NCBI RefSeq assembly: GCF_000024545.1
Contig: NC_013947.1
Span: 6,634,001-6,698,000, forward strand
Direction of reading: 5' to 3'
Source: Stackebrandtia nassauensis DSM 44728
Lineage (GTDB): Bacteria; Actinomycetota; Actinomycetes; Mycobacteriales; Micromonosporaceae
Length of the DNA: 64,000 nucleotides
The notes under the pieces are model-generated. The model was not told the origin of the DNA, made no database searches, and saw only the letters and a program-made list of their open reading frames with translations. How positions within the stretch are numbered: the stretch's first letter is position 1; the number at the start of each line of letters is the position of its first letter. A program made the translations under genes and the position numbers. Below, piece after piece: positions 7,876 to 62,140 of the stretch.

Positions 7876-8848
7876 CGAATCCCTCCCCGGTCAGGGAGAT
7901 GAAGACTTCCTCCAGAGTGGGTTCCAGGACGCGGAACTCGCGGACGGGGATGCCGTCGCCGACGATGGTGGACAGGATCTTCTCGGGTTCGGCGTCGCCG
8001 AGGTCGGCGGTGACGTGGGTGGCGGTTCGGGTGGGGTTCAGGCCGAAGTCGCGCAGCCGGTAGGTCACGGCGTCGGGGGTGCGGGTGTCGACGCGGATCC
8101 GGGTGGGCACCGAGGAACGGACGTCGTCCAATGTGCCCTGGATCTTGAGGCGGCCCCGGTGCATGATGCCGACGTGGTCGCACATCTGCTCGACCTCGCT
8201 GAGCAGGTGGGTGGACAGCAGGACGGTGAGGCCGTCGCGGGCGAGGTCGGCGATGAGGCTGCGGACTTCGCGGGTTCCCTGAGGGTCGAGGCCGTTGGTG
8301 GGTTCGTCGAGGATGAGCAGGCGGCGCGGGCGCAGCAGGGCGGCGGCGATGGCCAGCCGCTGTTTCATGCCCAGGGAGTAGGTGCGGAACGGTTTGCGGG
8401 CCGCCTTGGTCAGGCCGACGCGGTCGAGGGCGGCGGTGGTACGGGCGCGGACGGTGGCCCGGTCGGCGGTGCGGTCGGCGGCGTCCAGGCGCAGCAGGTT
8501 GTCGCGGCCGGACAGGGTGGGGTGGAAGGACGGGCCGTCGACCATGACGCCGACGTGGGGCAGGACCCGGGTGGCCGCGGCGGGCATGGCGCGACCCAGG
8601 AGTTCACAGTGGCCGTCGGTGGCCTCGATGAGGCCGAGCAGCATCCGGATGGTGGTGGTCTTGCCGCTGCCGTTGGGGCCCAGGAAGCCGTACACGGATC
8701 CGTAGGGGACGGTCAGTTCGAGGGAGTCGACGGCGGTGGCGTCGCGGCCGTAGCGCTTGGTGAGACCGAGGGTGCGGACGGCGTGGACGGCTGTCACGGC
8801 GCGGGAGCCGGGCTCCCGCGCCGTGACACGGTCGTGCTGGGTGTCCAT
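7862..8848 (-). CDS. ABC transporter ATP-binding protein (ABC-2 type)
   Basis: 328 aa. Walker A GPNGSGKTTT, signature YSLGMKQRLAIAAALL, Walker B LLILDEPTNGLDPQG, and the C-terminal extension usual for CcmA/drug-resistance ATPases. The ATG at 8848 shares one base with the TAA of the preceding LolA-like gene, so the three genes 8848-9888, 7862-8848 and 6991-7875 are a tightly coupled operon. Confidence 0.92.
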   Translation of the reverse strand: MDTQHDRVTAREPGSRAVTAVHAVRTLGLTKRYGRDATAVDSLELTVPYGSVYGFLGPNGSGKTTTIRMLLGLIEATDGHCELLGRAMPAAATRVLPHVGVMVDGPSFHPTLSGRDNLLRLDAADRTADRATVRARTTAALDRVGLTKAARKPFRTYSLGMKQRLAIAAALLRPRRLLILDEPTNGLDPQGTREVRSLIADLARDGLTVLLSTHLLSEVEQMCDHVGIMHRGRLKIQGTLDDVRSSVPTRIRVDTRTPDAVTYRLRDFGLNPTRTATHVTADLGDAEPEKILSTIVGDGIPVREFRVLEPTLEEVFISLTGEGFDADT

Positions 8849-22590: not shown

Positions 22591-22627
22591 GACGGTGGCC
22601 CGGCTCGATGAGAGCCGGGCCACCGTC
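22591..22627 (+). terminator. clpC terminator
   Basis: Perfect 16-bp stem: left arm GACGGTGGCCCGGCTC (22591-22606), loop GATGA, right arm 22612-22627. It lies 30 bp past the clpC stop codon. No T-run, as usual for high-GC terminators. Confidence 0.88.
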
Positions 22628-49285: not shown

Positions 49286-49963
49286 ATGCCGACAGCCTCC
49301 GACAAACCCGTCCGCAGTGGCCGCCCGCCGCGGCTGTCGCGCGCGGAGATCATCGCCGCCGCGAAACGGATCGTGGAGCGGGACGGGGTGGAGAAGCTGA
49401 CGATGCGGCTGCTGGCCCGGGAGGTCGGCAGCGCGCCGATGGCGCTGTACCACCACGTCCGGGACAAGCGGGAGTTGCTGTTGGCGCTGCTGGACGACCT
49501 CGCCGAACGGGTGCCGCGGCCGGAACTGCCCGACGACCCGGTCGAACGGATCATCGCCGCGACGGTGGCGATCCACGACGGCCTGCTGGAGTTCCCGTGG
49601 ATGGTGCGGATCCTGGCCGAAGGGGATCTGTTGTCCCCCAAGGCGTTGTGGTTCCCCGAGGCGGTCATCGACGCGGGCATCCGGGCGGGACTGTCGGAAG
49701 GCGAGGCGGTTCACGCCTATCGGTCGGTGTGGTACTTCACGGTCGGCGAGCTGATCGTGCGCACGGCGGCGCGGGAGCGGGTCGGGGTGCCGACGTACCA
49801 GGCGGAGGTGTTCCAGGAGCTGGATCCGCGGCGGACTCCCCGGCTGGCGGCGATCTCGGACCGGTGGTTGTCCTGGCAGCTGGCCGACACCTTCCGGCCG
49901 GGGCTGCGGGCGATTGTGGACGGTTTGCTGAGGGCGGTTAGGGGTGGCGGGTGTTCGGACTAG
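49286..49963 (+). CDS. TetR-family transcriptional regulator
   Basis: 225 aa. N-terminal HTH (AEIIAAAKRIVERDGVEKLTMRLLAREVGSAPMALYHHVRDKREL) and a C-terminal helical ligand domain of the TetR_C type (WFPEAVIDAGIRAGL). Its TAG shares CTAG with the convergent STAND gene. The effector and target are unknown; likely one is the divergent AraC-VOC unit. Confidence 0.92.
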   Translation: MPTASDKPVRSGRPPRLSRAEIIAAAKRIVERDGVEKLTMRLLAREVGSAPMALYHHVRDKRELLLALLDDLAERVPRPELPDDPVERIIAATVAIHDGLLEFPWMVRILAEGDLLSPKALWFPEAVIDAGIRAGLSEGEAVHAYRSVWYFTVGELIVRTAARERVGVPTYQAEVFQELDPRRTPRLAAISDRWLSWQLADTFRPGLRAIVDGLLRAVRGGGCSD

Positions 49964-52278
49964 AAGTCTGGCTCTTCCTGGGGACCAGTCGCTTCCTCGT
50001 ACTCGGCTCGCGTATGTGAATGTTCGTCACTCCCCAGCACCATGCTTGCGAGCGCAAGCAATGTCGCGCCCGCGATGTTGTCACCACCATTTATGAGGAC
50101 GTGATCGTGAAGTCGTCGATACGCCAACCCTGCCCCACGACCGTTCTCATCGTCCGTAGTCTCAACGAAGGTCTCCGGAAAAAGATCGCTTAGTTCACCA
50201 AGCGCGGATATCGCCATGTGATCGTCGGCGGTCAGCATTGCAATGCGGAGGCGACAATTGATGGCCTTGACTACTTCACCTTCATCTAGATAGATGTCAT
50301 AAGCCCTTTGAAGGTAACTGACCGGATCATCTGTCGCGCTGGCCACGGGAGAGACGGCACCAAGTAGTACCAATACTTCGGCTTCTCCCATTCGGTTCCC
50401 GGCTTCGCGATAAATGTCGTAGACATGTTCAAAGCATGATTTGGCGTCGGAGATGGCCCCCCAGAAGTCCAGCTTATTTCCCAGTTTCATAGTGACTTCC
50501 GGATAGTCGGTGACACTTGTGAATACCGCCAAGAGAGCAGTATGCTCGGCGATAAACCAGGACCGGTCCTCATTCTCCCGATGTTCGTCAAGCCGCATTC
50601 CATAGTAGGCACAAAGGACGTTGAAACGATTCGTGAACTTGCCGGCGACAGATACCGCAAGGTACTGCGCGTGATCAAGGATCACGTCATGTGCCGTGTA
50701 AGCGAACTCCGCCAACCCCTCTGGCACGACTTCGCCTCGATGCGGGTCAGCGAGCCGACGCGCCACCAACGCGTCCAAAGCATCAACTGCTTCTTCGAGA
50801 CTGACCTCGTGCCCCAAGGCCTGCTCTAGCATCACGGCAACGGTACCCACCGTCAAATATCGACCAGGGTGAGTGCCAAGCAGCTCGTAGATCTCCTGCT
50901 GTATCGGCGACAGGCAAAGATAGGCGTCATCAAGGATACTGAAGACCCGCGCTTTCGTGCGGGCATCGGGTAGCTCGGCCACCTCGATGTCCAATTCCGA
51001 CAGAGTCTTGATCCCGGTCATCAGCTTCGCGGCCATCGCACCGATCAGCACCGGAACTCGATCGCACGCGTTGGCGATCCGCTTGACAGCTTCGACATCG
51101 CCGCACCGATCCGCTCCCGCGATCTCGGCGAACATGGCGACGGCGTCCGACAGCGGCAAGACGTCCAGGTCCAACATGCGAGCACCATCCACATGGAACC
51201 GATTCCGGCTGGTGATCAGCGTCAGGCTTCCCTCGCCCCGCGCGCGCAACGGTTCGATCTGCTCATCCTCGAAAACGTTGTCCCACAAAAAGATCATGCG
51301 ACGTCCGTCAATCACCGCATGCCAACTCGCGAACTGCTCTTCACGGCTCATCCGGTCAACAACCGGCGCCGTCATGCCACACCCCAGCTTCAGAAGTCCA
51401 GGCAGGACATCCTCGGCCCGCAGCGCCCTATCCGTCTCCGGATACGACTGAAAATCAACGAACACCAACCCGTCTGGATACTCGTCGGCCACAGACTTGG
51501 CAAAAGCCGATACCAACGCGGTCTTGCCAACGCCTCCAAAACCCCCGACCGAGCACACCATGCCGACCATGCCGCTGGCACGCAGCGACTCCAGTTCGGC
51601 CAGCTGCTCAACTCGGCCTACAAAGTGGTCAGCCGAAGTAGAGATGCGTCCATAGTCGATCCGGCTTGGACCCAGGCCACCGCCAGCTACCCGCGCCGGT
51701 ACGCCATCGCCACCAATCCACAGTCCCTCACTCAGCTCACCATAAAGCCGCCGCTCCTCAACAAGCTCCTCCAACTGCCGATGCGTGACCTCATACTGGT
51801 ACCCGCTCCATATCCCCCGCAGCTCACCACCACCCGTCTCCGCGTTCTCCCGGACAGCCGCCACGATCTCGGCCGACAAGACTTCACACAGCTCATCGAT
51901 CTCCGTCGACAGCTCCTCATGCGCTTCAGCGGGCTGTCCCCCATCCAACCCGTCGCCCCATTCATCCGAAAACTCCCCATTTACCGGCACAAAGACATCC
52001 CGCACCCAAGGCCCCACCGCCGTCCGCAGCTCCCCCAACCGCGTCCCGTCCACAAGCGGCAACTCCCGCGAGTCCCGTTCCATGAGGCACCGAACCAGAT
52101 TCTCCGCCCCCACCTCATCCTCCCCGTGCAAGATCTCCGCCGCCCGCTTCACCGCCGCAGCCACGGCCTGCACCAACGCCCGCTGCACCTCCGTCCCCAG
52201 CACCGCCGTACGAAACTGCTGGCCGACCCTGTCGAGAGCCTTTCCAGCCCACCGCCCGCCGAAGAACGCTTCCACCAT
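49960..52278 (-). CDS. STAND NTPase with N-terminal helical domain and C-terminal repeats
   Basis: 772 aa. An uncharacterised N-terminal region (about 1-200, helical), then an NTPase: VGRVEQLAELESLRAS (about 220), P-loop GGFGGVGKTALVSAFA near 245-253, Walker B RRMIFLWDNV near 327-335, LITSRNRF as sensor, followed by winged-helix/ARC-like sequence and TPR-like helices (YLQRAYDIYLDEGEVVKAINCRLRIA). This is the STAND plan of regulators and defence sensors. Base composition is visibly lower in GC than neighbours, and codon use differs, suggesting transfer. AAAGGG before ATG 52278. Confidence 0.8.
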   Translation of the reverse strand: MVEAFFGGRWAGKALDRVGQQFRTAVLGTEVQRALVQAVAAAVKRAAEILHGEDEVGAENLVRCLMERDSRELPLVDGTRLGELRTAVGPWVRDVFVPVNGEFSDEWGDGLDGGQPAEAHEELSTEIDELCEVLSAEIVAAVRENAETGGGELRGIWSGYQYEVTHRQLEELVEERRLYGELSEGLWIGGDGVPARVAGGGLGPSRIDYGRISTSADHFVGRVEQLAELESLRASGMVGMVCSVGGFGGVGKTALVSAFAKSVADEYPDGLVFVDFQSYPETDRALRAEDVLPGLLKLGCGMTAPVVDRMSREEQFASWHAVIDGRRMIFLWDNVFEDEQIEPLRARGEGSLTLITSRNRFHVDGARMLDLDVLPLSDAVAMFAEIAGADRCGDVEAVKRIANACDRVPVLIGAMAAKLMTGIKTLSELDIEVAELPDARTKARVFSILDDAYLCLSPIQQEIYELLGTHPGRYLTVGTVAVMLEQALGHEVSLEEAVDALDALVARRLADPHRGEVVPEGLAEFAYTAHDVILDHAQYLAVSVAGKFTNRFNVLCAYYGMRLDEHRENEDRSWFIAEHTALLAVFTSVTDYPEVTMKLGNKLDFWGAISDAKSCFEHVYDIYREAGNRMGEAEVLVLLGAVSPVASATDDPVSYLQRAYDIYLDEGEVVKAINCRLRIAMLTADDHMAISALGELSDLFPETFVETTDDENGRGAGLAYRRLHDHVLINGGDNIAGATLLALASMVLGSDEHSHTRAEYEEATGPQEEPDF

Positions 52279-52740
52279 CCGTTTCCCTTTCCGCGCCTCT
52301 CAACGCTAACCGGTCAACGATGCGGTAGCGAACCAGCGCCTAACGGCTGACAACCCAATACACGAACGGTTCGACTCGTGACGATAGATCGGACAGACCT
52401 TGCCACCGGGGCTGAAAGTCCCCGCCGGACAGGGAGCTACGTCACTGGCAAGATCATCACTCTCAGTTGCCTGTCACGCTGGGACAATGCTGTGATCTTG
52501 AGGGTACTCGAATGATCGAAATGGATACGTAAGTTTACTGACTCCAAAATAGATCACAGGAATCTCTTAAGGCGCATCGGATAGTGTGACACTTCGACAG
52601 AGATCAACCTTTGAATACGGGTGTATTCGATTTCGTCCATGTAGGTTAGGGGCGCCACAGAGGACGACCTGCGAACAGGTCAACTGACGGTTTCTGGTGC
52701 CCATCTACCGACGGGGTTGATGGGAGGAGACACACAGACC
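52279..52740. other. 462-bp AT-richer intergenic region upstream of metal operon
   Basis: No gene recognised. Holds the STAND promoter, an AAGATCA/TGATCTT pair (52450-52456, 52493-52499), a GGGG-CTGAAAGT-CCCC element (52408-52423) and an inverted repeat GAATAC-GGGT-GTATTC (52613-52628) about 115 bp before the oxidase start, a candidate metalloregulator site. Confidence 0.6.
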
Positions 52741-55023
52741 ATGCAACACGAGGCTGACAAGAATCCGGGGGAGGGCCCGCAGACTCCGCCGCCCAAGGTG
52801 GGGTGGTCGGTGATTCCGGAGCGCAAGAGTCAGGACGCCAGTCCCAAGGCGCCCATGACGACCCCGATGACAACCGAACCCAAGGACGGGCCGCACGCGC
52901 GCCCCACCGAGCCGGAGCGGGTGGGCCCACCACCACCCGCTCCCCGTAACACCCAGCCGACGACGCTGCCGTCGTCGTCCGAGCCCTCGCACGGCGGGAT
53001 GGGCGTCGAGGCTCCCTATTCGATCCACGACGACTATCCGGGCAAGGAGAACCTGCAGTACCTGGCGTTGCCGGATGGTCTGCCCGACCACAGTGATCAC
53101 CGCAGCCCACCGGTGACGGCGTTCAAGGACCCGTTGCCGCTGCTGCCGGTCGCCGAGCCGGAGCGGGAGCCGCTGGTACCCGCGCCGGACGGGCGGCGGC
53201 ACCAGTTGTTCGACCAGTTCAAGCCCGAGAAGTACTACATCCAGCGGGAAGAGGAGTTCCAGACTCAGCTCCACAGTGACTACGGGAAGGTGACCTGGAC
53301 CTGGGGTATCGAGGGGTCCCGTCCCGGGCCCACGATCCACGCCCGTTACGGCGAGCCGATCCTGATGCGCCGCTTCAACAACCTGCCGATGCTGGGCACC
53401 GGCAAGGTCGAGTTCGCGATGCCGTCCACCACCCGGCACACCCATAATGGACACAACGAGTCGGCCAGCGACGGCAACCCGGACGACTGGGCCGACACCG
53501 GTGACTTCTGGGACCACCACTTCGCCAACTTCCCCGCCACCGTCCTGGATCCCCGCTCCGGAAAGCGGGTCCCCGACGAGCGGGAGAAGATGACGACGCT
53601 GTGGTACCACGACCACCGGCGGGACTTCACCGGTCCCAACGTGTACGCCGGGCTGGTGGGTACCTACCTGTACTTCGACGACCAGGACTCCGGGGACGAG
53701 AACGACCCCAACCCGTACGCGTGGCGGCTGCCCAGCGGCGAGTTCGACCAGCCGCTGGTGTTGCAGGACCTGATGATCACCGAGGACTACCAGCTGATGT
53801 GGGAGCCCCGCGACACCATGGGGCTGCTGGGCGACCGGTTCAGCGTCAACGGGGTCATCCAGCCGCACCACCGGGTGAAGCGCCGCAAGTACCGGTTCCG
53901 GCTGGTCAACGCGTCGGTGTCCCGGTTCTACAACCTGAACCTGAACTTCGCGCGCAACGACACCGGACGTCCCGAGGACGACCGGTTCGTCCGGATGATC
54001 GCGATCACCGGCGACGGCAACCTGCAGCCGGAACCGCTGGAGACCGAGCAGATCATGCTGGGCCCGGCGCAGCGGGTCGACATCATCGTCGACTTCTCGA
54101 AGTTCGACGACGGCGACATCCTGTACCTGGAGAACCGGCTGGACCAGGACGAGGGACACGGGCCCTCGGGGCGGCAGATCACCGATCCGCAGGCGATCCG
54201 GGAGAAGCGCCTGATGCGGTTCGACGTCCGCGGCGGCAAGGTCAACGACCCCAGCCGGATCCCGGACTTCTTCCGGCCGTTCCCGGAGATCGACTCCTGC
54301 GAGATCGTCCGCAAGCGGCGCTGGCTGTTCGACTACACCGCCGGGCTGTTCGTCATCAACGGCAAGGCGATGGACTCCAACCGCATCGACGCGGGCATCG
54401 AGATCAACACCGCCGAGGAGTGGACGTTCTACAGCATCGGGAACATCTGGAGCCATCCCGTCCACAGTCACCTGAGTGAGTGGCTGGTTCAGGAGGTCAA
54501 CGGCGTCCCGGTCGAGCCCGACATGGTGCAGATCGCCATGTTCGTCAACAGCGTCGACGACTTCCAGCGGGTGTTCAAGAAGAAGCAGAGCGAGGGCAAG
54601 GACTACAAACTCGGGACGAACGTCCTGAGGGGACCGTTCTGCGGCGGCTACCGCCGCGACATCGCGCTTTTGGCCCCGGCAACGTCCATCACCATGTACT
54701 CGCGGTGGCCCGACTTCCTCGGCCGCTACGTGTTGCACTGCCACAACCTGGTGCACGAGGACGCGGCGATGATGATCCGCTGGGACGTGCTGCCGCCCGG
54801 CAAGGGCTTCGACGGATCCAAGACGGTGCAGCAGGTGTACGGGGCGGCCAGCCTGCCGGTGCACAACGAGGCGGTCCCGGCCCATGTCAAGCACGTGGCG
54901 GCCACAGCGACCATCCGCGACAACGGCGAGGGGGTCGACGACGCGCAGTCCATTCCCCCCGAACCGGTCGACAAGTACCCCAAGGCGGGCGCGTCCGACG
55001 ACGACGGCGGCGGCCACCACTGA
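52741..55023 (+). CDS. Multicopper oxidase (large, no signal peptide)
   Basis: 760 aa. Copper motifs in order: RHTHNGHNES near 230, WYHDHRRDFT near 290, HPVHSHLSEW near 570, and the T1 Cu motif HCHNLVHEDAAMM near 666. So all four copper sites are predicted. A Pro/Ser-rich N-terminal 140 residues precedes the first cupredoxin domain; no signal peptide is seen. ATG 52741 follows GGGAGGAG by 11 bases. Related to spore-coat CotA/bilirubin oxidase-like enzymes; substrate may be a metal ion or phenolic. First gene of a five-gene cluster. Confidence 0.92.
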   Translation: MQHEADKNPGEGPQTPPPKVGWSVIPERKSQDASPKAPMTTPMTTEPKDGPHARPTEPERVGPPPPAPRNTQPTTLPSSSEPSHGGMGVEAPYSIHDDYPGKENLQYLALPDGLPDHSDHRSPPVTAFKDPLPLLPVAEPEREPLVPAPDGRRHQLFDQFKPEKYYIQREEEFQTQLHSDYGKVTWTWGIEGSRPGPTIHARYGEPILMRRFNNLPMLGTGKVEFAMPSTTRHTHNGHNESASDGNPDDWADTGDFWDHHFANFPATVLDPRSGKRVPDEREKMTTLWYHDHRRDFTGPNVYAGLVGTYLYFDDQDSGDENDPNPYAWRLPSGEFDQPLVLQDLMITEDYQLMWEPRDTMGLLGDRFSVNGVIQPHHRVKRRKYRFRLVNASVSRFYNLNLNFARNDTGRPEDDRFVRMIAITGDGNLQPEPLETEQIMLGPAQRVDIIVDFSKFDDGDILYLENRLDQDEGHGPSGRQITDPQAIREKRLMRFDVRGGKVNDPSRIPDFFRPFPEIDSCEIVRKRRWLFDYTAGLFVINGKAMDSNRIDAGIEINTAEEWTFYSIGNIWSHPVHSHLSEWLVQEVNGVPVEPDMVQIAMFVNSVDDFQRVFKKKQSEGKDYKLGTNVLRGPFCGGYRRDIALLAPATSITMYSRWPDFLGRYVLHCHNLVHEDAAMMIRWDVLPPGKGFDGSKTVQQVYGAASLPVHNEAVPAHVKHVAATATIRDNGEGVDDAQSIPPEPVDKYPKAGASDDDGGGHH

Positions 55024-55036
55024 GAGGTAAGGCGAC

Positions 55037-56830
55037 ATGAGCAAATACGACGAGCCGATGACGGCGCGCATACCGGTGGTCCGGGTGGAGGAGGAGCCTA
55101 AGACTCCGCTGCCACCGGCACCGGCACCGCTGCTGCCCGAGGTACCGATCCACAATCACCCGAAGCCGCAACGGCAGCTGGACCCGCCGAAGCAGCAGAC
55201 CGTCGGGGACACCACCTTCATCGAGACCGGTGAGGGGTATTTCGAGGAGATCGACCCGTTCTCGTTCCCGCCCGGGACGAACCTGCTGCCGACCGTGTAC
55301 ACCAACGCCTTCGACAGCTTCGGCAACGAGATCCCCAACACCCTGCCTTCTTCGCCGTTGAACCCCAACAACCTGCACCAGGGGGCTCCGAAGAAGAAGG
55401 ACATCAACATCACCTCGCCGACGAACGACCTGTCGCACATCTTCGACAGGCTCGCCAACCTGTTGTCGGGCAAGTCGGCCTCGGAGTTCTGGTCCCGGCA
55501 CGGCGGCCGGGCACAGCCGGAGGAGGTGGGGCGCACCATTCCCGCCGAGGAGGCCGACCTGGACTCGATCCGGCAGCAGCTGTCGCGGGCCATCCACATC
55601 CTGGAGGGCAACCCGATCCCGGACCGGGAGTACAGCGGATTCCCACTGTTGCACTACAACGGGCCCGACAAGATCAAGAAGGTCGAGCCGATCCGGGACA
55701 AGCGCGGCAAGATCATCGGCGGCAACGTCAACATCCACCAGCTGTGGTACGACCACCACATCGAGTCGGACACCGCGTTCCTGGACCTGTCGCCTTTGGA
55801 CGGACCGGACGGGAAGCCGCTGGACGTCACGTTCACGATCACGTACAAGCTGACCGTCCTGGACAAGGGCAAGGACGCGTTCTCGCCGTTCATGATGCTC
55901 AACGACCACCCGGATTTCCCGCCCGGCAAGGGTTTCGGGGAACCGGCGGTGCCGGGCGTCGCGTTCGACCAGAGCTTCGAGCCCATCGGCGAGGGGCAGC
56001 AGATCGACATCGTCATCAAGATGCCGCCGCCGAAGTACTACAAGTTCATCTACACCTGGGGCTGGCGGTTCCACCCGCCGCGCGTCCAGGCGCTGGAGAA
56101 CGCGCGGACCCTGTTCCCCGAGACCGCCGAACCCGGCGGCCCGAAGCAGAAGACCCTGCCGCAGTACGAGGAGGAGGTCTTCGGCGGCGGCAAGAGCCGT
56201 TCCGAGGCCATCGCCATGCTCAGCGACCTGGCTCCGGAGAAGCGCATGTGGACGTTCTTCCGCAAGGCGCTGGTCTCGATCAACGCCGACAAGCCGGACA
56301 CCAACAAGGCGCTGGTCGACGTGTGTCAGGCGCGGGCGGCGTTCTTCGACTGGAAGGACCGCACCACCCTGCCGGCCGGGGCCGAAGTGGACCCCGACAC
56401 CGACATGACGCTGCTGTACGCCGGTAACACGATCTACGGCGAGCACCGGGACGGCAGCTTCGTCGACTTCGAGAAGTGGCGGACCCGGGGCACCAACTTC
56501 AAGGTGACCCTGCTCAACGCCGACTACTTCCAGCGCGCCTACGCCAGTCTCGACTTCGGCGGCGGGCGCGGCTGGGAGAACCAGTGGAAGCCGGGACTGC
56601 GGGAGGGCCAGCAGGGCCCGTACTTCAGCTTCGGACGCGCCTGGTGGTCCCAGAACACCGACGTGCGGCAGCCGATCATCCTGCCCGCCGCGACCAAGGA
56701 CCGCAAGGGACGCAGCTTCCCGGTGAAGCGCAAGGTCCAGATCAAGTTCAACTTCGAGCCCTCGCGGCGACTGCGGCTCTACCAGTACGACCCGATGCAC
56801 CACGACGTGGGCGTCTTCTCAGTGCATTAA
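55037..56830 (+). CDS. Unrecognised 597-aa protein, partner of the multicopper oxidase
   Basis: 597 aa, not recognised. No signal or membrane helix. A Pro-rich N-terminus (PLPPAPAPLLPEVPIHNHPKP) resembles that of the oxidase. The central part has NVNIHQLWYDHHIESDTAFLDLS and IYTWGWRFHPPRVQALENA, with His/Trp clusters; the C-terminus ends in LYQYDPMHHDVGVFSVH. AAGGCG before the ATG; 14 bp after the oxidase. Possibly a structural or electron-transfer partner; no function assigned. Confidence 0.8.
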   Translation: MSKYDEPMTARIPVVRVEEEPKTPLPPAPAPLLPEVPIHNHPKPQRQLDPPKQQTVGDTTFIETGEGYFEEIDPFSFPPGTNLLPTVYTNAFDSFGNEIPNTLPSSPLNPNNLHQGAPKKKDINITSPTNDLSHIFDRLANLLSGKSASEFWSRHGGRAQPEEVGRTIPAEEADLDSIRQQLSRAIHILEGNPIPDREYSGFPLLHYNGPDKIKKVEPIRDKRGKIIGGNVNIHQLWYDHHIESDTAFLDLSPLDGPDGKPLDVTFTITYKLTVLDKGKDAFSPFMMLNDHPDFPPGKGFGEPAVPGVAFDQSFEPIGEGQQIDIVIKMPPPKYYKFIYTWGWRFHPPRVQALENARTLFPETAEPGGPKQKTLPQYEEEVFGGGKSRSEAIAMLSDLAPEKRMWTFFRKALVSINADKPDTNKALVDVCQARAAFFDWKDRTTLPAGAEVDPDTDMTLLYAGNTIYGEHRDGSFVDFEKWRTRGTNFKVTLLNADYFQRAYASLDFGGGRGWENQWKPGLREGQQGPYFSFGRAWWSQNTDVRQPIILPAATKDRKGRSFPVKRKVQIKFNFEPSRRLRLYQYDPMHHDVGVFSVH

Positions 56831-56847
56831 TCCCGACAACACAAAAC

Positions 56848-56877
56848 GCCGCCGCCGGAAGAGATTCCGGCGGCGGC
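56848..56877 (+). terminator. Hairpin between the 597-aa gene and DUF1326
   Basis: Perfect 13-bp stem GCCGCCGCCGGAA (56848-56860), GAGA tetraloop, TTCCGGCGGCGGC (56865-56877), just ahead of the DUF1326 ribosome site. May be a partial terminator or an RNA-processing site setting the ratio within the operon. Confidence 0.7.
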
Positions 56878-56894
56878 CGAAAGGCTGAAACGAC

Positions 56895-57530
56895 ATGGAA
56901 TACGTTTCCTACAACCTGCGCGGCCACTTCCTCGAGATGTGCGACTGCTCGACCATCTGCCCCTGCTGGCTCGGCGAGGCCCCCGACAACGGCGCCTGCA
57001 CCGGCGTGTTCGGCTGGGACATCACCGAAGGCGAGATCGCCAATGTGGACGTGACCGGCCGCAAGGTCATCAGCGCGTCCTACCACACCGGCAACCGCAG
57101 CGACGGCGGTCAGGACGTCTACCTCTTCGTCGACGAGGAGGCCGACGACGAGCAGTTCCAGGCCCTGGCCAACGCCTTCACCGGTCGGCTGGGCGGACCG
57201 CTGGGCGAGCTGGCCGTCCTGATGGGAACCCTCAAGGCCGCCGAGCGCTGCCCCATCAAGATCTCCGCCGAGGCCGACAAGCTGCGGCTCCAGGTGGACG
57301 GCCGGATCTCGGGCGACATCACCCCGCTGTTCGGCACCGACGGCCAGGTCACCGAACTGGCGCACTCGCCACTGTCCAAGGTGCTCGGTTCCCGGGCCGA
57401 GGTCGGCAAGAGCGGCGCGTTCCAGATGGACCTCGGCGAGGACAAGTTCACCATGGAGATGGACGGACTGGCCGCGATGCGGGGCCGGTTCGCCTATGAC
57501 AACCAGGGAACCCTGATCGGAACCAAATGA
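56895..57530 (+). CDS. DUF1326 Cys-motif protein
   Basis: 211 aa matching DUF1326: CDCSTICPCWLG near residue 16 (the family Cys cluster, likely metal- or thiol-binding), DNGACTGVFGWDI, and a conserved AERCPIKISAEADK segment. Soluble. ATGA overlap with the DUF2182 gene; the two families are often adjacent. Function unknown; metal handling is inference from Cys motifs and the oxidase. Confidence 0.88.
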   Translation: MEYVSYNLRGHFLEMCDCSTICPCWLGEAPDNGACTGVFGWDITEGEIANVDVTGRKVISASYHTGNRSDGGQDVYLFVDEEADDEQFQALANAFTGRLGGPLGELAVLMGTLKAAERCPIKISAEADKLRLQVDGRISGDITPLFGTDGQVTELAHSPLSKVLGSRAEVGKSGAFQMDLGEDKFTMEMDGLAAMRGRFAYDNQGTLIGTK

Positions 57531-58333
57531 CGGCAACGGCGGAGAAGAGCGTTCGGGCTCCGAAATGGACCTGGCGGGACGTACCGCTGCCGCTGGGCAT
57601 GTCGCTGGTGGCGACCGCGGGCCTCGTCCTGTGGCACTTCTCGCCGTGGACGCACTACATGCACCTGACGCTGCCGTCGGGCGGCCACGACCACCATGGC
57701 GGGGGTGCCGAGCCCGGCATGACCGCCATGGTGGGGCTGTTCACGGGGGCGTGGCTGCTGATGACCGTGGCGCACATGCTGCCCACGGCGATCCCGCTGC
57801 TGGCCTCGTTCCGGCGGGTGGCGGCCCGACGGCCGGAACGGACCCGGCTGACGGTGGTCGTGGTGGCCGGGTTCCTGACGGTGTGGGCGGCCGCGGGCGC
57901 CGCGATCTCGTTCGCGCACGTACATCTGCGCTACCTCGTCGAGATGAACTCGCTGCAGGCGGCGGCCCCGTGGTTCCTGGTGGCGACCCTGGTCGCCGCC
58001 GGGGCGTACCAGTTCTCGAACTACATCGCCAAGTGCGTGACGGCCTGCCGGTCGCCGTTCAGTTTCATCGGGAAGCACTGGAAGGGCGGCGACAGCGTCG
58101 CGGGCCAGTCGTTCCGGATCGGCCTGGACTACGGCCAGTCGTGCCTGGGCTGCTGTGCCGCACTGATGGTGGTCATGTTCATCGTGGGCTCGGCCAGTCA
58201 CCTGTGGATGGTCGTGTTCGCCCTGTTCGGCGTGATCCAGAAGAGTGCCCGCTGGGGTGGGAGGCTGACCCGGCCGATGGGTGTCGGGTTCTTCGTCGCG
58301 GCGGGAGTCGTGGCGGCGCTTCAGTTCCTGTGA
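57527..58333 (+). CDS. DUF2182 metal-binding integral membrane protein
   Basis: 268 aa, about six membrane helices. DUF2182 signatures: KCVTACRSPFSFIGKHW near residue 166 and GLDYGQSCLGCCAALMVVMF near 203, where paired Cys residues suggest copper or other metal. A His-rich loop GGHDHHGGGAEPGM lies near 50. Operon with DUF1326 and, by context, the multicopper oxidase. Suggested role: membrane transport or delivery of a metal; not proven. Confidence 0.9.
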   Translation: MTATAEKSVRAPKWTWRDVPLPLGMSLVATAGLVLWHFSPWTHYMHLTLPSGGHDHHGGGAEPGMTAMVGLFTGAWLLMTVAHMLPTAIPLLASFRRVAARRPERTRLTVVVVAGFLTVWAAAGAAISFAHVHLRYLVEMNSLQAAAPWFLVATLVAAGAYQFSNYIAKCVTACRSPFSFIGKHWKGGDSVAGQSFRIGLDYGQSCLGCCAALMVVMFIVGSASHLWMVVFALFGVIQKSARWGGRLTRPMGVGFFVAAGVVAALQFL

Positions 58334-58337
58334 CCGC

Positions 58338-58371
58338 GTGCCGGTCGCATACGGCTCGTATGCGTCGGCAC
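58338..58371. repeat. Long hairpin/palindrome downstream of DUF2182
   Basis: CGCATACG-GCT-CGTATGCG (58346-58364) is a perfect inverted repeat, extended by GTGCCG (58338-58343) with CGGCAC (58366-58371). Either an operator for a small-metal regulator or an RNA structure. Confidence 0.6.
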
Positions 58372-58389
58372 GCGCACCGACTCGATAGC

Positions 58390-58426
58390 TTGACGGCGAC
58401 GACGGGTTTCCCGTCGTCGCCGTCAA
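58390..58426 (+). terminator. Perfect 17-bp hairpin ahead of the small Cys peptide gene
   Basis: Left arm TTGACGGCGACGACGGG (58390-58406), loop TTT, right arm 58410-58426, immediately followed by CTCTCTCC and the ribosome site of the peptide gene. May terminate most readthrough, so the peptide gene is separately regulated. Confidence 0.75.
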
Positions 58427-58446
58427 CTCTCTCCGTTGGAGGAACC

Positions 58447-58584
58447 ATGACCCTTCGCCGATCCCTGGTCGCCGCGGCACTCGCGCTGGCTGGGCTGCTG
58501 ACGGTGAGCGCTCCCGCCATCGCCTCACTTTCGGACTCCGGAACCACGATGGCTGACAACTGCCACTGCCGAAAGTGCTGCTGA
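58447..58584 (+). CDS. Tiny secreted Cys-cluster peptide
   Basis: 45 aa. Sec signal (MTLRRSLVAAALALAGLLTV, cleavage near SAPAIA) and a predicted mature peptide of about 18-20 residues ending in DNCHCRKCC: four Cys and one His in the last seven residues. GGAGG lies four bases before the ATG, a good ribosome site. A sequence of this design suggests metal binding (Cu or Zn) or disulfide chemistry. It lies beyond the multicopper-oxidase/DUF2182 genes and is convergent with the SARP gene. No known family is recognised. Confidence 0.75.
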   Translation: MTLRRSLVAAALALAGLLTVSAPAIASLSDSGTTMADNCHCRKCC

Positions 58585-58590
58585 CCGTCC

Positions 58591-61500
58591 TCAAGCGACT
58601 TCGTCGCGGTTGAGACGGTCCCGGATCTCATCGGCATCAGGCATGTCCATCTCTACAAACTGACGCAGGGCACATATCAAATGGAGCCGTGCCTGGTGCC
58701 GATGACCCAAAGCCTCGAGACTGTCGGCGATCCCGCGCTGCGCCAGCGCGTACAGGTGCGGCGCGACCCCGTCGGTCAGTGTCTCGGCCCGGTACAGGTG
58801 CTCGAGCGCCGAGGCGTGGTCGCCGAGCTTCGCGTGGGTCTCGGCCAGCTCCACCACCGCCGTCGCCAACAGCCAGACGTCACCGAACCCGGTGGCGACG
58901 GCGACGGCCTCACGGTGGGCGTCGAGGGCGTCTTGGGGGCGCCCCAGCGCGAGCAGCGTCTTGGCCTTGGTGCTCAACAACATCGACAGGTTGTCGGGCT
59001 CGATGTCGGGGCCGTAGTAGTCGCGGGCGGTGCTCAAACGCTCCAGGGTGTCGGCGGGGTTTCCGGCGTGGAGTTGCAGCTCGGCGCTGTTGTACGTGAA
59101 ACGGGCCCGGGCCTGCTGGTCGCCGCGTCGGTTGGCCAGCTCGATCGCCCGGTCCAGGTCGCGCAGCGCGCCGGCGGCGTCGCCGAGGCGGAAAGCGCAC
59201 TGCGCCAGGCGATTGCGGATCTCCATCTCGACGAAGTCGTCGCCGCCCGGCCGCGACGCCAGGGCTTCGGCCAGGGTCATGCTGGCGTCGGCGAACCGGC
59301 CCGCACCGATCTGGGCCATGGCGGTCTCGAAGGTCGCGGTGAGCGTTATGTCGGGCTGGCCGACGCGCTCGCCGATGCGGCGGGCGAGGGTGAGCTCGTC
59401 GATGGCCTGTTCGGACTGTCCACATTTCGCCAGGCAGGAACCCTGGGCGATGCGCAGCCAGGCTTCGGCGGCGGGGTCGCCGAGGCGTTTGGCGGTGTCG
59501 AGCAGTTTCGGGAAGCGGGCCGGGAAGTCGTTGTAGCGGGCTTGGCGCCATAGGTAGCTCAGTTGCAGGGTGGCCAGTTCGACGGATTGGGCGCCGACGT
59601 CGTGGTCGTGCCCCGATTCGATGAAGGCCAGGATGTTGGGGTTCTCATCGTCCATGATGGCCAGTGCCGTGGTGGCGTCGGGGATGGTTGGCGTTGGGGT
59701 TTCGGGGGCACGGACTCGGTAGTCGCGGCCGATGGACACGATCGGTTCGGCGGCATAGAGCTTGCCCGCGTAGTAGAGGTAGAGGTCGCCGAGGCGTTGG
59801 CGAGCGTGGGCTCGGGTTTCGGGGGTGTCCAGGGTGGCTTTGTGGGCGGCGAACTCGCGTACGAGGTCGTGGAAGCGGTAGCGGCCGGGGCGGAACTCGA
59901 TGAGGAGGTTGACGTCGACGAGTTCGTCGAGTGTGGCCTGTGTGGACGACAGCGAGGGGTGGCGTGACGGCGAAGCCTCGCTTGGGTCGTCAGCCGGTTC
60001 CGCGCACAACGCGGCGGCGGTGTACACGTCGAAGTCGTGGCCGGGATGCAAGCCCAGGCGCCGGAAAGCGTTGCGAGCCAAGTCATCGAGCTCGGCGTAG
60101 GACATCTCGAACGCGGCCGTGACGCTGCGGTCGCCGGCGCACAGCCCGGCCAGTCCGGCTTGCTGGAGCCGGTCGCGCAGATCGGCAAGCGTCCAGTCGG
60201 GGCGGTGTCGCAGCCGCGCGGCGGCGATCCGGATCGCCAGCGGCAGCATGCCGCAGACAGCCACGATCTCGGCGGCTACGGCTTCGTCTGCCGCAGCGAA
60301 CCGGCCGGGCTCCACGGCGGGGACGGATTTTTGCCCCGCACCGCCCCGACTGGGCCCCAGCGCGGCGGCCAGCAGCGCTATCGCCTCCGCGCGGCCCAAC
60401 AGCTCCAGCTGGATCGACCGGGCCTGGTCCAGACCGGCCAGGCTGCGACGGCTGGTGACGATCGCCAGGCTCGCATCGCCGCCGGGCAACAGCGGCCCCA
60501 CCTGCTGCTCCCCACTGGCGTTGTCCAGCACGATCAGCACACTGCGATCGCTCAGGATCGATCGATACAGCCCCGCCCGCTCGTCCAGGTTCTCCGGGAT
60601 CTGCCGGGGATCGACGCCCAAGCTGTGCAACAGCCGCTCCAGTGCCACCGCCGGGTCGGTCGCGGGCGCGTCAGCGTCGAAGCCATGCAGGTCGATGAAC
60701 AACTGCCCGTCCGGGAACTCGTCCGCCAACCGCCGGGCCGCGTGCACCGCCAACGCGGTCTTCCCGATGCCCGCCATGCCTTCCACGGACGAGACCACCA
60801 GCGCTCCCGAGCGTCGCTGGGTCACCGCCGAGCACAGTGCCTCAACCTCGCTGTCGCGCCCGGTGAACCCGGGAACGTCGGCGGGCAGCTGAGCCGGAAC
60901 CAGCCGCGGCAGTCCGGTGCCTCGCTCCCGCGCCGCTTCGCCGTCCCGCGACACCCGAGGCTCGTCACCGGACACCATCCGCTCGTACAGCGCCGCCAGT
61001 CGCGGCGAAGGGTCCACGCCCAGCTCGTCGACCAACCGCACCCGGGTATCGCGGTACAACGCCAGCGCCTCGTCCGGCCGTCCCCCGCGATACGACGCCA
61101 GCATCAGCAGCTCGATCGGCTGCTCGGCGAGCGGATCGGCGGTCACCTCCGTCCGCAGCCCCGCGATCGCCTCGTCATACCGCCCCAGCTCGACCAGAAC
61201 CCGCAGATACCTGCGACGCGTCTCGGCGCGCGCCTCGCACAGCTCCATCGCCAACGCCGCGAGCGGACGGTCGACGGTGGCCGTCTCGAAGGGTTCGCCC
61301 CGCCACTGCGCGAGCGCCTCGGCGAACGCCCGCGCCGCTTCGGCATGGTCCCCGGCGGCGAACGCCGCTTCGCCCCGTCCGTTCAGGTCGCGGAACCGCC
61401 GCAGATCGCTCTCCCCGCCGCCGATGCGCAGCCGCACCCGGCCCTCGCCGAGTTCCAGCCGCGAACCAGCGTCGTCGGCCAGCGCCCGACGGAGCTTGGC

Positions 61501-61695
61501 GAGGTAGGTACGCAGGTTGGCGGCGGCGGAATCCGGCGCCTCGTCCCAGACCGTCGTCAGCAGCCGCGAGCGCGACATCCAGTCCTCGGCGTGGCAGACC
61601 AGCGCGGCCAGAACGGCCTTCTGACGGCCGCCGCCGATCGGCACGGCCACGCCGTCGCGGCGCACCTCAACCGGGCCAAGGACTCGAAACTCCAC
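58591..61695 (-). CDS. AfsR/SARP-type regulator: OmpR-HTH, BTAD, NB-ARC, TPR
   Basis: 1034 aa. An OmpR-type winged HTH (EFRVLGPVEVRRDGVAVPIGG) and BTAD domain (about 95-240, with DPLAEQPIELLMLASYRGGRPDEAL) form the SARP half; then NB-ARC with P-loop SVEGMAGIGKTALAVH near 305 and VLIVLDNASG, followed by a winged helix and about eight TPR-like helices. In Streptomyces AfsR activates secondary metabolism after phosphorylation. GTG 61695 follows GGAAGG; upstream codons in the same frame are less plausible. Target unknown. Confidence 0.92.
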   Translation of the reverse strand: MEFRVLGPVEVRRDGVAVPIGGGRQKAVLAALVCHAEDWMSRSRLLTTVWDEAPDSAAANLRTYLAKLRRALADDAGSRLELGEGRVRLRIGGGESDLRRFRDLNGRGEAAFAAGDHAEAARAFAEALAQWRGEPFETATVDRPLAALAMELCEARAETRRRYLRVLVELGRYDEAIAGLRTEVTADPLAEQPIELLMLASYRGGRPDEALALYRDTRVRLVDELGVDPSPRLAALYERMVSGDEPRVSRDGEAARERGTGLPRLVPAQLPADVPGFTGRDSEVEALCSAVTQRRSGALVVSSVEGMAGIGKTALAVHAARRLADEFPDGQLFIDLHGFDADAPATDPAVALERLLHSLGVDPRQIPENLDERAGLYRSILSDRSVLIVLDNASGEQQVGPLLPGGDASLAIVTSRRSLAGLDQARSIQLELLGRAEAIALLAAALGPSRGGAGQKSVPAVEPGRFAAADEAVAAEIVAVCGMLPLAIRIAAARLRHRPDWTLADLRDRLQQAGLAGLCAGDRSVTAAFEMSYAELDDLARNAFRRLGLHPGHDFDVYTAAALCAEPADDPSEASPSRHPSLSSTQATLDELVDVNLLIEFRPGRYRFHDLVREFAAHKATLDTPETRAHARQRLGDLYLYYAGKLYAAEPIVSIGRDYRVRAPETPTPTIPDATTALAIMDDENPNILAFIESGHDHDVGAQSVELATLQLSYLWRQARYNDFPARFPKLLDTAKRLGDPAAEAWLRIAQGSCLAKCGQSEQAIDELTLARRIGERVGQPDITLTATFETAMAQIGAGRFADASMTLAEALASRPGGDDFVEMEIRNRLAQCAFRLGDAAGALRDLDRAIELANRRGDQQARARFTYNSAELQLHAGNPADTLERLSTARDYYGPDIEPDNLSMLLSTKAKTLLALGRPQDALDAHREAVAVATGFGDVWLLATAVVELAETHAKLGDHASALEHLYRAETLTDGVAPHLYALAQRGIADSLEALGHRHQARLHLICALRQFVEMDMPDADEIRDRLNRDEVA

Positions 61696-61756
61696 AACAC
61701 GGCCGCCTTCCCCTTTTGGCCGCGACAACCGTATCGCGCGGCGGGATAATGGACCG

Positions 61757-62140
61757 ATGGCCAGACTGCACGACATCGTCTTCGACTGTGGACACGCGGC
61801 ATCACTGGCGCGGTTCTGGGCCGCCGCCGTGGACGGCTACGCCGTCGCCCCCTACGACGACGAGGAGCTGGCCCGGCTGCGCTCGTTCGGGATCACCGAC
61901 ACCGAGGACGATCCGACCGTGCTCGTCGAGTCGGCCGCCGGCGGGCCGCGACTGTGGTTCCAGCGCGTCCCGGAGACCAAGGTGGTCAAGAACCGGGTGC
62001 ACGTCGATCTGCGGACCGATGACCTGGAGACCGAGATCGCGCGGCTGACCGCGCTGGGCGCGTCGGTGTCGGAACGCTTCGGCGACAACGTCGTCCTGCT
62101 CGACCCCGAGGGCAACGAGTTCTGTCTCGCCGTGAACTGA
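61757..62140 (+). CDS. VOC/glyoxalase-like protein
   Basis: 127 aa: DIVFDCGHAASLARFWAAAVDGY, NRVHVDLRTDDLETEIARLTALGA, and LLDPEGNEFCLAVN. The glyoxalase-like family with the conserved DPEGNEFC end. Divergent from the SARP gene by 61 bp. Ligand unknown. Confidence 0.87.
   Translation: MARLHDIVFDCGHAASLARFWAAAVDGYAVAPYDDEELARLRSFGITDTEDDPTVLVESAAGGPRLWFQRVPETKVVKNRVHVDLRTDDLETEIARLTALGASVSERFGDNVVLLDPEGNEFCLAVN

Follow-up and report, generated by a model that had tools for sequence, protein, structure and literature searches.

A few cases apart, little is known to our knowledge about the copper loading of multicopper oxidases (MCOs) and about the accessory proteins that these enzymes need. 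SCO proteins function on the outer side of the membrane, and the Mn oxidases that are known work outside the cytoplasm. The mnxG operon of Pseudomonas putida includes, according to the available portions of two reports, genes for a beta-propeller protein and for SCO1/SenC (PMC8218464, PMC11409713). Six genes of this operon are listed in the accessible text of PMC11409713, and none of them, compared by description only, is described there in a way that fits the 597-aa protein (P597) considered below; the corresponding portion of PMC11930936 contains nothing on the other genes of the operon. In Marinomonas mediterranea, PpoB2 is described, in the available part of PMC2855505, as the copper-transfer protein for the tyrosinase PpoB1 but not for the copper oxidase PpoA. 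The DUF1326 and DUF2182 families were not found under those names in the open-licence PMC literature, and their Pfam and COG names lead only to the PpoB2 work.

In the soil actinobacterium Stackebrandtia nassauensis, listed as non-sporulating in the accessible text of PMC3035245, genes for an MCO, P597, a DUF1326 protein and a DUF2182 protein are followed by a 45-aa ORF (Table 1). An ORF check of the window (the whole 64-kb stretch of DNA that was analyzed) found all five ORFs where the earlier note had placed them. The MCO stop and the P597 start are separated by 13 nt, in line with the claimed distance of at most 14 bp, and the reported ATGA overlap of the DUF1326 (PF07040) and DUF2182 (PF09948) ORFs is likewise there, at 4 nt. 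The P597-DUF1326 gap, between two genes on the same strand, is 64 nt long, and the DUF2182-peptide gap is 113 nt long.

Table 1. Genes and hairpins of the S. nassauensis locus (positions within the window)
Feature	Position	Strand	Remarks
Multicopper oxidase, 760 aa	52741..55023	+	Four copper motifs; Pro-rich N-terminus; no visible export signal
P597, 597 aa, unnamed family	55037..56830	+	Residues ~165-507 common to two actinobacterial proteins
Perfect 13-bp hairpin, 4-nt loop	56848..56877		17 nt past the P597 stop; no T-run on the + strand
DUF1326 protein, 211 aa	56895..57530	+	PF07040, E 1.5e-39; CxCxxxCxC at residues 16-24
DUF2182 protein, PpoB2-family predicted membrane copper chaperone, 268 aa	57527..58333	+	PF09948, E 8.6e-56
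First of the tandem hairpins after DUF2182	58335..58374		From the gap fold
Second tandem hairpin, perfect 17-bp stem, 3-nt loop	58390..58426		From the stem scan and the gap fold
45-aa ORF, C-terminal CHCRKCC	58447..58584	+	Signal-like hydrophobic N-terminus; GGAGG before the ATG

The preferred reading, tentatively given a probability of about 0.45, is that of two coupled gene pairs, in which the MCO and P597, both without export signals, would form an oxidase with its partner and would be served by copper delivery through the DUF1326-DUF2182 pair. P597 would be the MCO's own partner, probably a subunit or an assembly partner. The DUF2182 protein would be a PpoB2-family membrane protein that hands copper on, the DUF1326 protein would be a soluble Cys-motif protein working with it, and the two would load copper into the MCO where three of its relatives have SCO; the 45-aa peptide would be left out or only loosely tied. 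Since neither the MCO nor P597 has a visible export signal, the MCO is probably cytoplasmic, so that SCO could not serve it, whereas the DUF1326-PpoB2 module could. The MCO-P597 complex, the transfer of copper to the MCO and the cytoplasmic site are all predicted from the sequence; the substrate could be a phenolic compound or a low-valent metal. Copper transfer from a PpoB2-type protein to an MCO would be an extension of the known role, because PpoB2 serves a tyrosinase and not PpoA in the part of PMC2855505 available. This transfer and the joint action of the two pairs are the weak links of the reading.

Both downstream proteins can be assigned with ease, as the DUF1326 protein scores 136.4 bits against a PF07040 cut-off of 25 and the DUF2182 protein 189.3 bits against a PF09948 cut-off of 28.7, the latter family being named “PpoB2, copper chaperone” in Pfam. 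The DUF2182 protein has four hydrophobic segments and Cys residues at positions 170, 174, 206, 209, and 210. Similarly to the M. mediterranea operon, a PpoB2-family protein is encoded here near a copper oxidase; the S. nassauensis oxidase, however, is an MCO rather than a tyrosinase, and an extra DUF1326 gene is present (PMC2855505, available part). Judging by its occurrences, the DUF1326-DUF2182 pair constitutes an independent module that is widespread. A search of plasmids with DUF2182 gave 49 records, and in 11 of the 12 loci opened among the 20 matches listed (flanks of 5-7 kb) DUF1326 adjoined DUF2182 by tblastn; none of these 12 contained a match to the window MCO or to P597. In the GTDB family of S. 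nassauensis, DUF2182 is found in 16 of 101 genomes, at 17 places. At six of these, the S. nassauensis locus included, DUF1326 is present in the 1.5 kb retrieved; these six are exactly the places scoring >170 bits, and two of them have it on the opposite strand. The 16 other family places have no window MCO or P597 match within ~1.5 kb. The locus provides a testable setting for both DUF families.

Three of the plasmid loci have neighbors worth recording. On a Mycobacterium avium plasmid, DUF2182 occurs without DUF1326 next to a heavy-metal regulator and a copper P-type ATPase, neighbors that fit a copper role for it. On Cupriavidus necator pHG1, DUF1326-DUF2182 is followed by a small GDCCVxC-domain (seleno)protein, and on a Caballeronia grimmiae plasmid a tyrosinase-family gene is located ~2.3 kb from the pair, on the other strand.

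The independence of this module elsewhere raises the alternative that the S. nassauensis locus brings together two unrelated neighbors, an MCO-partner pair and a DUF1326-DUF2182 metal module that lies downstream by chance. The hairpins bear directly on this question. The window contains five perfect stems of at least 11 bp (loops of 3-8 nt), compared with a mean of 0.25 in 20 Markov-1 samples; four of the five have at least 13 bp and lie outside called genes within ~60 nt of a gene end, and the fifth, of 11 bp, is inside the MCO gene. The P597-DUF1326 gap folds at -30.6 kcal/mol (z, -5.2) and the DUF2182-peptide gap at -74 kcal/mol (z, -8.4). A scan of the region for T-tailed terminators gave 3 sites, no excess over the shuffle mean of 3.7, and included only one of these hairpins, 56848-56877, in its minus-strand reading. 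Termination can thus only be inferred, because the hairpins look terminator-like but come with no T-tailed excess; the one between P597 and DUF1326 is possibly a terminator or an attenuator and could uncouple the two gene pairs. Elsewhere in the window, two more perfect hairpins of 16-17 bp (8792-8828 and 22591-22627) stand just after gene ends.

Although none of the hairpins has a T-run, they argue against a single five-gene transcript, and the one operon proposed in the earlier note is unsupported. The genes are best divided into three units, namely, MCO-P597, DUF1326-DUF2182, and, on its own, the peptide. The hairpin between the pairs, along with the 12 plasmid loci that have DUF2182 but neither an MCO nor a P597 match, favors a chance association. 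Still, the two pairs are on the same strand only 64 nt apart, both of them indicate copper, and the mere 17 nt from the end of the hairpin to the DUF1326 start leave little room for a promoter. No sigma-70-type promoter matched in the scanned stretch, a model that tells little about an actinobacterium. Chance association can be regarded as a real possibility that is, on balance, somewhat unlikely, and the coupling of the two pairs remains the preferred reading.

The MCO itself is complete in its copper ligands. The four motifs credited to it are all present, namely, HTH at 233, HDH at 290, HPVHSH at 572, and HCHNLVHEDAAM at 666, in agreement with the membership pattern HxH, HxH, HxxHxH, and HCHxxxHxxxxM. 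It matches PF07731 (Cu-oxidase_2; E, 2.4e-10) and PF07732 (Cu-oxidase_3; E, 4.4e-6) above the cut-offs and PF00394 (Cu-oxidase) below the Pfam cut-off. Among solved structures, bilirubin oxidase and CotA laccase are the nearest by sequence (best E, 1.2e-40), and the best NCBIfam model is that of phenoxazinone synthase PhsA, at 136.4 bits against an equivalog cut-off of 950. The window MCO differs from bilirubin oxidase, CotA, and PhsA in a Pro-rich N-terminal extension of ~120 aa that precedes the part matched to solved structures, and the organism, listed as non-sporulating (PMC3035245, accessible text), would have no spore coat. No RR motif and no hydrophobic stretch could be seen at its N-terminus, even when the frame was read stop-to-stop from 52645; export signals of this protein, P597, the peptide, and the relatives were judged by eye and from hydropathy, without a signal predictor. 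A pattern scan of genome contigs with the MCO found none, such single-protein scans reaching close relatives only.

A search of plasmids for relatives of the MCO gave 626 records; four loci were opened among the 20 matches listed. In a 15-row tree, with a midpoint root that serves only for display, the window MCO forms one split with the MCOs of Skermanella, Paraburkholderia, and Fuscovulum plasmids (support, 100/99), albeit on a long branch of 1.53. The other 11 rows comprise an MCO from a Streptomyces plasmid, a second MCO encoded in the S. nassauensis genome, and nine of the best matches from the genomes of 60 other relatives. The first copper motif reads HxHN in the window MCO and its three sisters and HxHG in these 11. 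All three sisters have a twin-arginine-like N-terminus (by eye) and an SCO gene nearby, with no P597 match at their loci, whereas the window MCO is without such a signal and without SCO, as no SCO domain was detected by Pfam among the seven genes scanned at 49960-61776. Hypothetical proteins at the Paraburkholderia locus (L071) were tried as P597 relatives and not accepted (best profile E, 0.069), and the neighbors of other MCOs at loci L003, L038, and L039 gave no match. Beside the Skermanella MCO, an Ig-like protein (L003:10493-12349) has a relative in the G935 cluster discussed below (L068:388-4512; 36% identity over 227 aa), which makes it, by sequence similarity, a further candidate MCO companion.

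P597 was presented earlier as a protein of no recognized family, and it indeed has no match in Pfam (none at E up to 1), NCBIfam, PHROGs, or PDB. It is not an orphan, however, because its domain is also present in two further actinobacterial genomes, designated G428 and G935. The G428 relative is 27% identical over 378 aa (E, 3.7e-16 in a comparison with a few loci and 1.9e-7 in a genome search), and its ORF follows, at a distance of 1 nt, an ORF of 2041 aa that has multicopper oxidase domains. This giant protein matches the NCBIfam MnxG model with E of 7.2e-35 and can be called an MnxG relative but not a proven MnxG, because its 119 bits are far under the model cut-off of 3100. The G935 relative is 25% identical to P597 over 369 aa (E, 6.7e-21 for a search of 18 kb) and 41% identical to the G428 relative over 995 aa. 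About 14 kb away on the same contig, 1792 aa can be aligned with the G428 giant MCO at 45% identity; this span contains one stop, so that the gene could be a broken or split one or the result of misassembly. The contig also encodes a DUF1775 protein, a di-haem cytochrome c peroxidase-like protein, and a redoxin and, judged by its gene content, could possibly be a manganese-oxidation cluster (G935:C94). A separate observation concerns a plasmid of Streptomyces sp. NBC_00335, where the gene for an MnxG-like giant protein, annotated as hypothetical, precedes that for a CopC protein and has a YcnI gene ~4 kb ahead of it.

The P597 domain was sought in genome samples that overlap one another. Direct searches found it in none of 100 other genomes of the family and, with scoring restricted to the top three or four candidates of each genome, in 1 of 395 other genomes of the phylum. 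A two-row profile, scored in the same way, found it in none of 398 others in the class of G428 and in 1 of 393 others in the class of S. nassauensis, and the domain of the relative was absent from the 41 others in the order of G428. Neither plasmids nor viral contigs yielded a homologue of P597 or of the relatives' domain, and a pattern scan of genome contigs with P597, of the kind that reaches close relatives only, found none. All three carriers of the domain found here sit on a stretch with an MCO, which is suggestive of a link to MCOs, three cases not being proof. With both relatives on contigs with a giant MCO, the case for P597 as a partner of MCOs becomes stronger. If a partner domain does recur near MnxG-related giant oxidases, it would offer a new way into the study of biological manganese oxidation.

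That P597 has the same role as its relatives is not certain, because the identity is 25-27%, two cases are few, and both relatives have hydrophobic signal-like N-termini and run on into a Vgb-type beta-propeller, whereas P597 has neither a visible export signal nor a propeller. Other identities for P597 were rejected. A hidden MCO was dismissed on a probability of 0.1% for its profile against the window MCO and on the absence of a PDB match by sequence or profile, and the idea, conceived by eye, that its C-terminus is a Cys-less cupredoxin was dropped as it had no Pfam support. A single-sequence structure model, with a mean pLDDT of 38.6, was useless.

The preferred reading can be taken further. 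P597 would then found a family of dedicated partners for both MnxG-related giants and smaller MCOs; in S. nassauensis, the pair would have lost both export signals, the outer SCO loader would have been replaced by the inner DUF1326-PpoB2, and the whole complex would have moved inside the cell, a scenario that is plainly unlikely as it stands. It is quite improbable, in turn, that P597 partners MCOs that oxidize Mn(II) or a similar metal, the smaller MCO of the window among them. Such a role would agree with the presence of MnxG-related giants near both relatives and with the beta-propeller protein and SCO genes of the P. putida mnxG operon. However, the 760-aa window MCO gave no hit to the MnxG model (NF041487) at E up to 1 and is closest, among solved structures, to bilirubin oxidase and CotA, and no export signal could be seen on it, whereas the known Mn oxidases work outside the cytoplasm.

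The earlier note had further assumed a Cys/His theme in every member of the locus, which does not hold, given that P597 has a single Cys in 597 aa and the MCO three in 760. What stands of the suggested metal-handling or oxidation system is a copper theme, represented by the full ligand set of the MCO and by the identity of DUF2182 with PpoB2; the five genes as one set do not. In the neighborhood survey that had been proposed as a co-occurrence check, the full five-gene set recurred in no locus looked at. DUF1326 beside DUF2182 did recur, as did the P597 domain near MCOs, with no other such peptide and no match to the window MCO or to P597 at the other DUF2182 loci covered.

The tiny Cys peptide exists as an ORF with the features ascribed to it, but its membership in the system is doubtful; its start lies 20 nt past the last hairpin. 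The pattern CHCxxCC plus a stop-like codon matches 16 times, in 14 of the 296 genomes of the class that were scanned (S. nassauensis included), and is not enriched, because the same pattern read backwards gives 22 matches in 21 genomes. No credible counterpart was recognized by this pattern in the 295 other class genomes, and a looser scan of the loci (at least 4 Cys among the 14 residues preceding a stop) brought up numerous chance frames but, by eye, nothing comparable next to other DUF2182 genes. That the peptide is the secreted metal-binding member of a five-gene system is most improbable: its signal-like N-terminus, its GGAGG, and its terminal four Cys and one His speak for this role, against which stand the tandem hairpins ahead of it and the fact that only 5 of the 16 matches truly end in a stop, with only that of the window behind a signal-like stretch (by eye).

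As to the surroundings of the locus, GC3 of 0.92-0.94 in the four large genes indicates host-like codon use, which ruled out their recent transfer as far as composition can tell. A leader RNA upstream of the MCO was considered and rejected: 52279-52760 has no Rfam match up to E of 5, the fold of 52370-52520 is no better than those of shuffled sequences, and no DNA similar to 52279-52740 was detected on plasmids. The neighboring gene at 49960-52278, on the minus strand, encodes an NB-ARC/AAA-like protein, with both Pfam matches just under their cut-offs; its GC3 is 0.68, compared with 0.81-0.95 in the other called genes of the window, and it is possibly a recent arrival.
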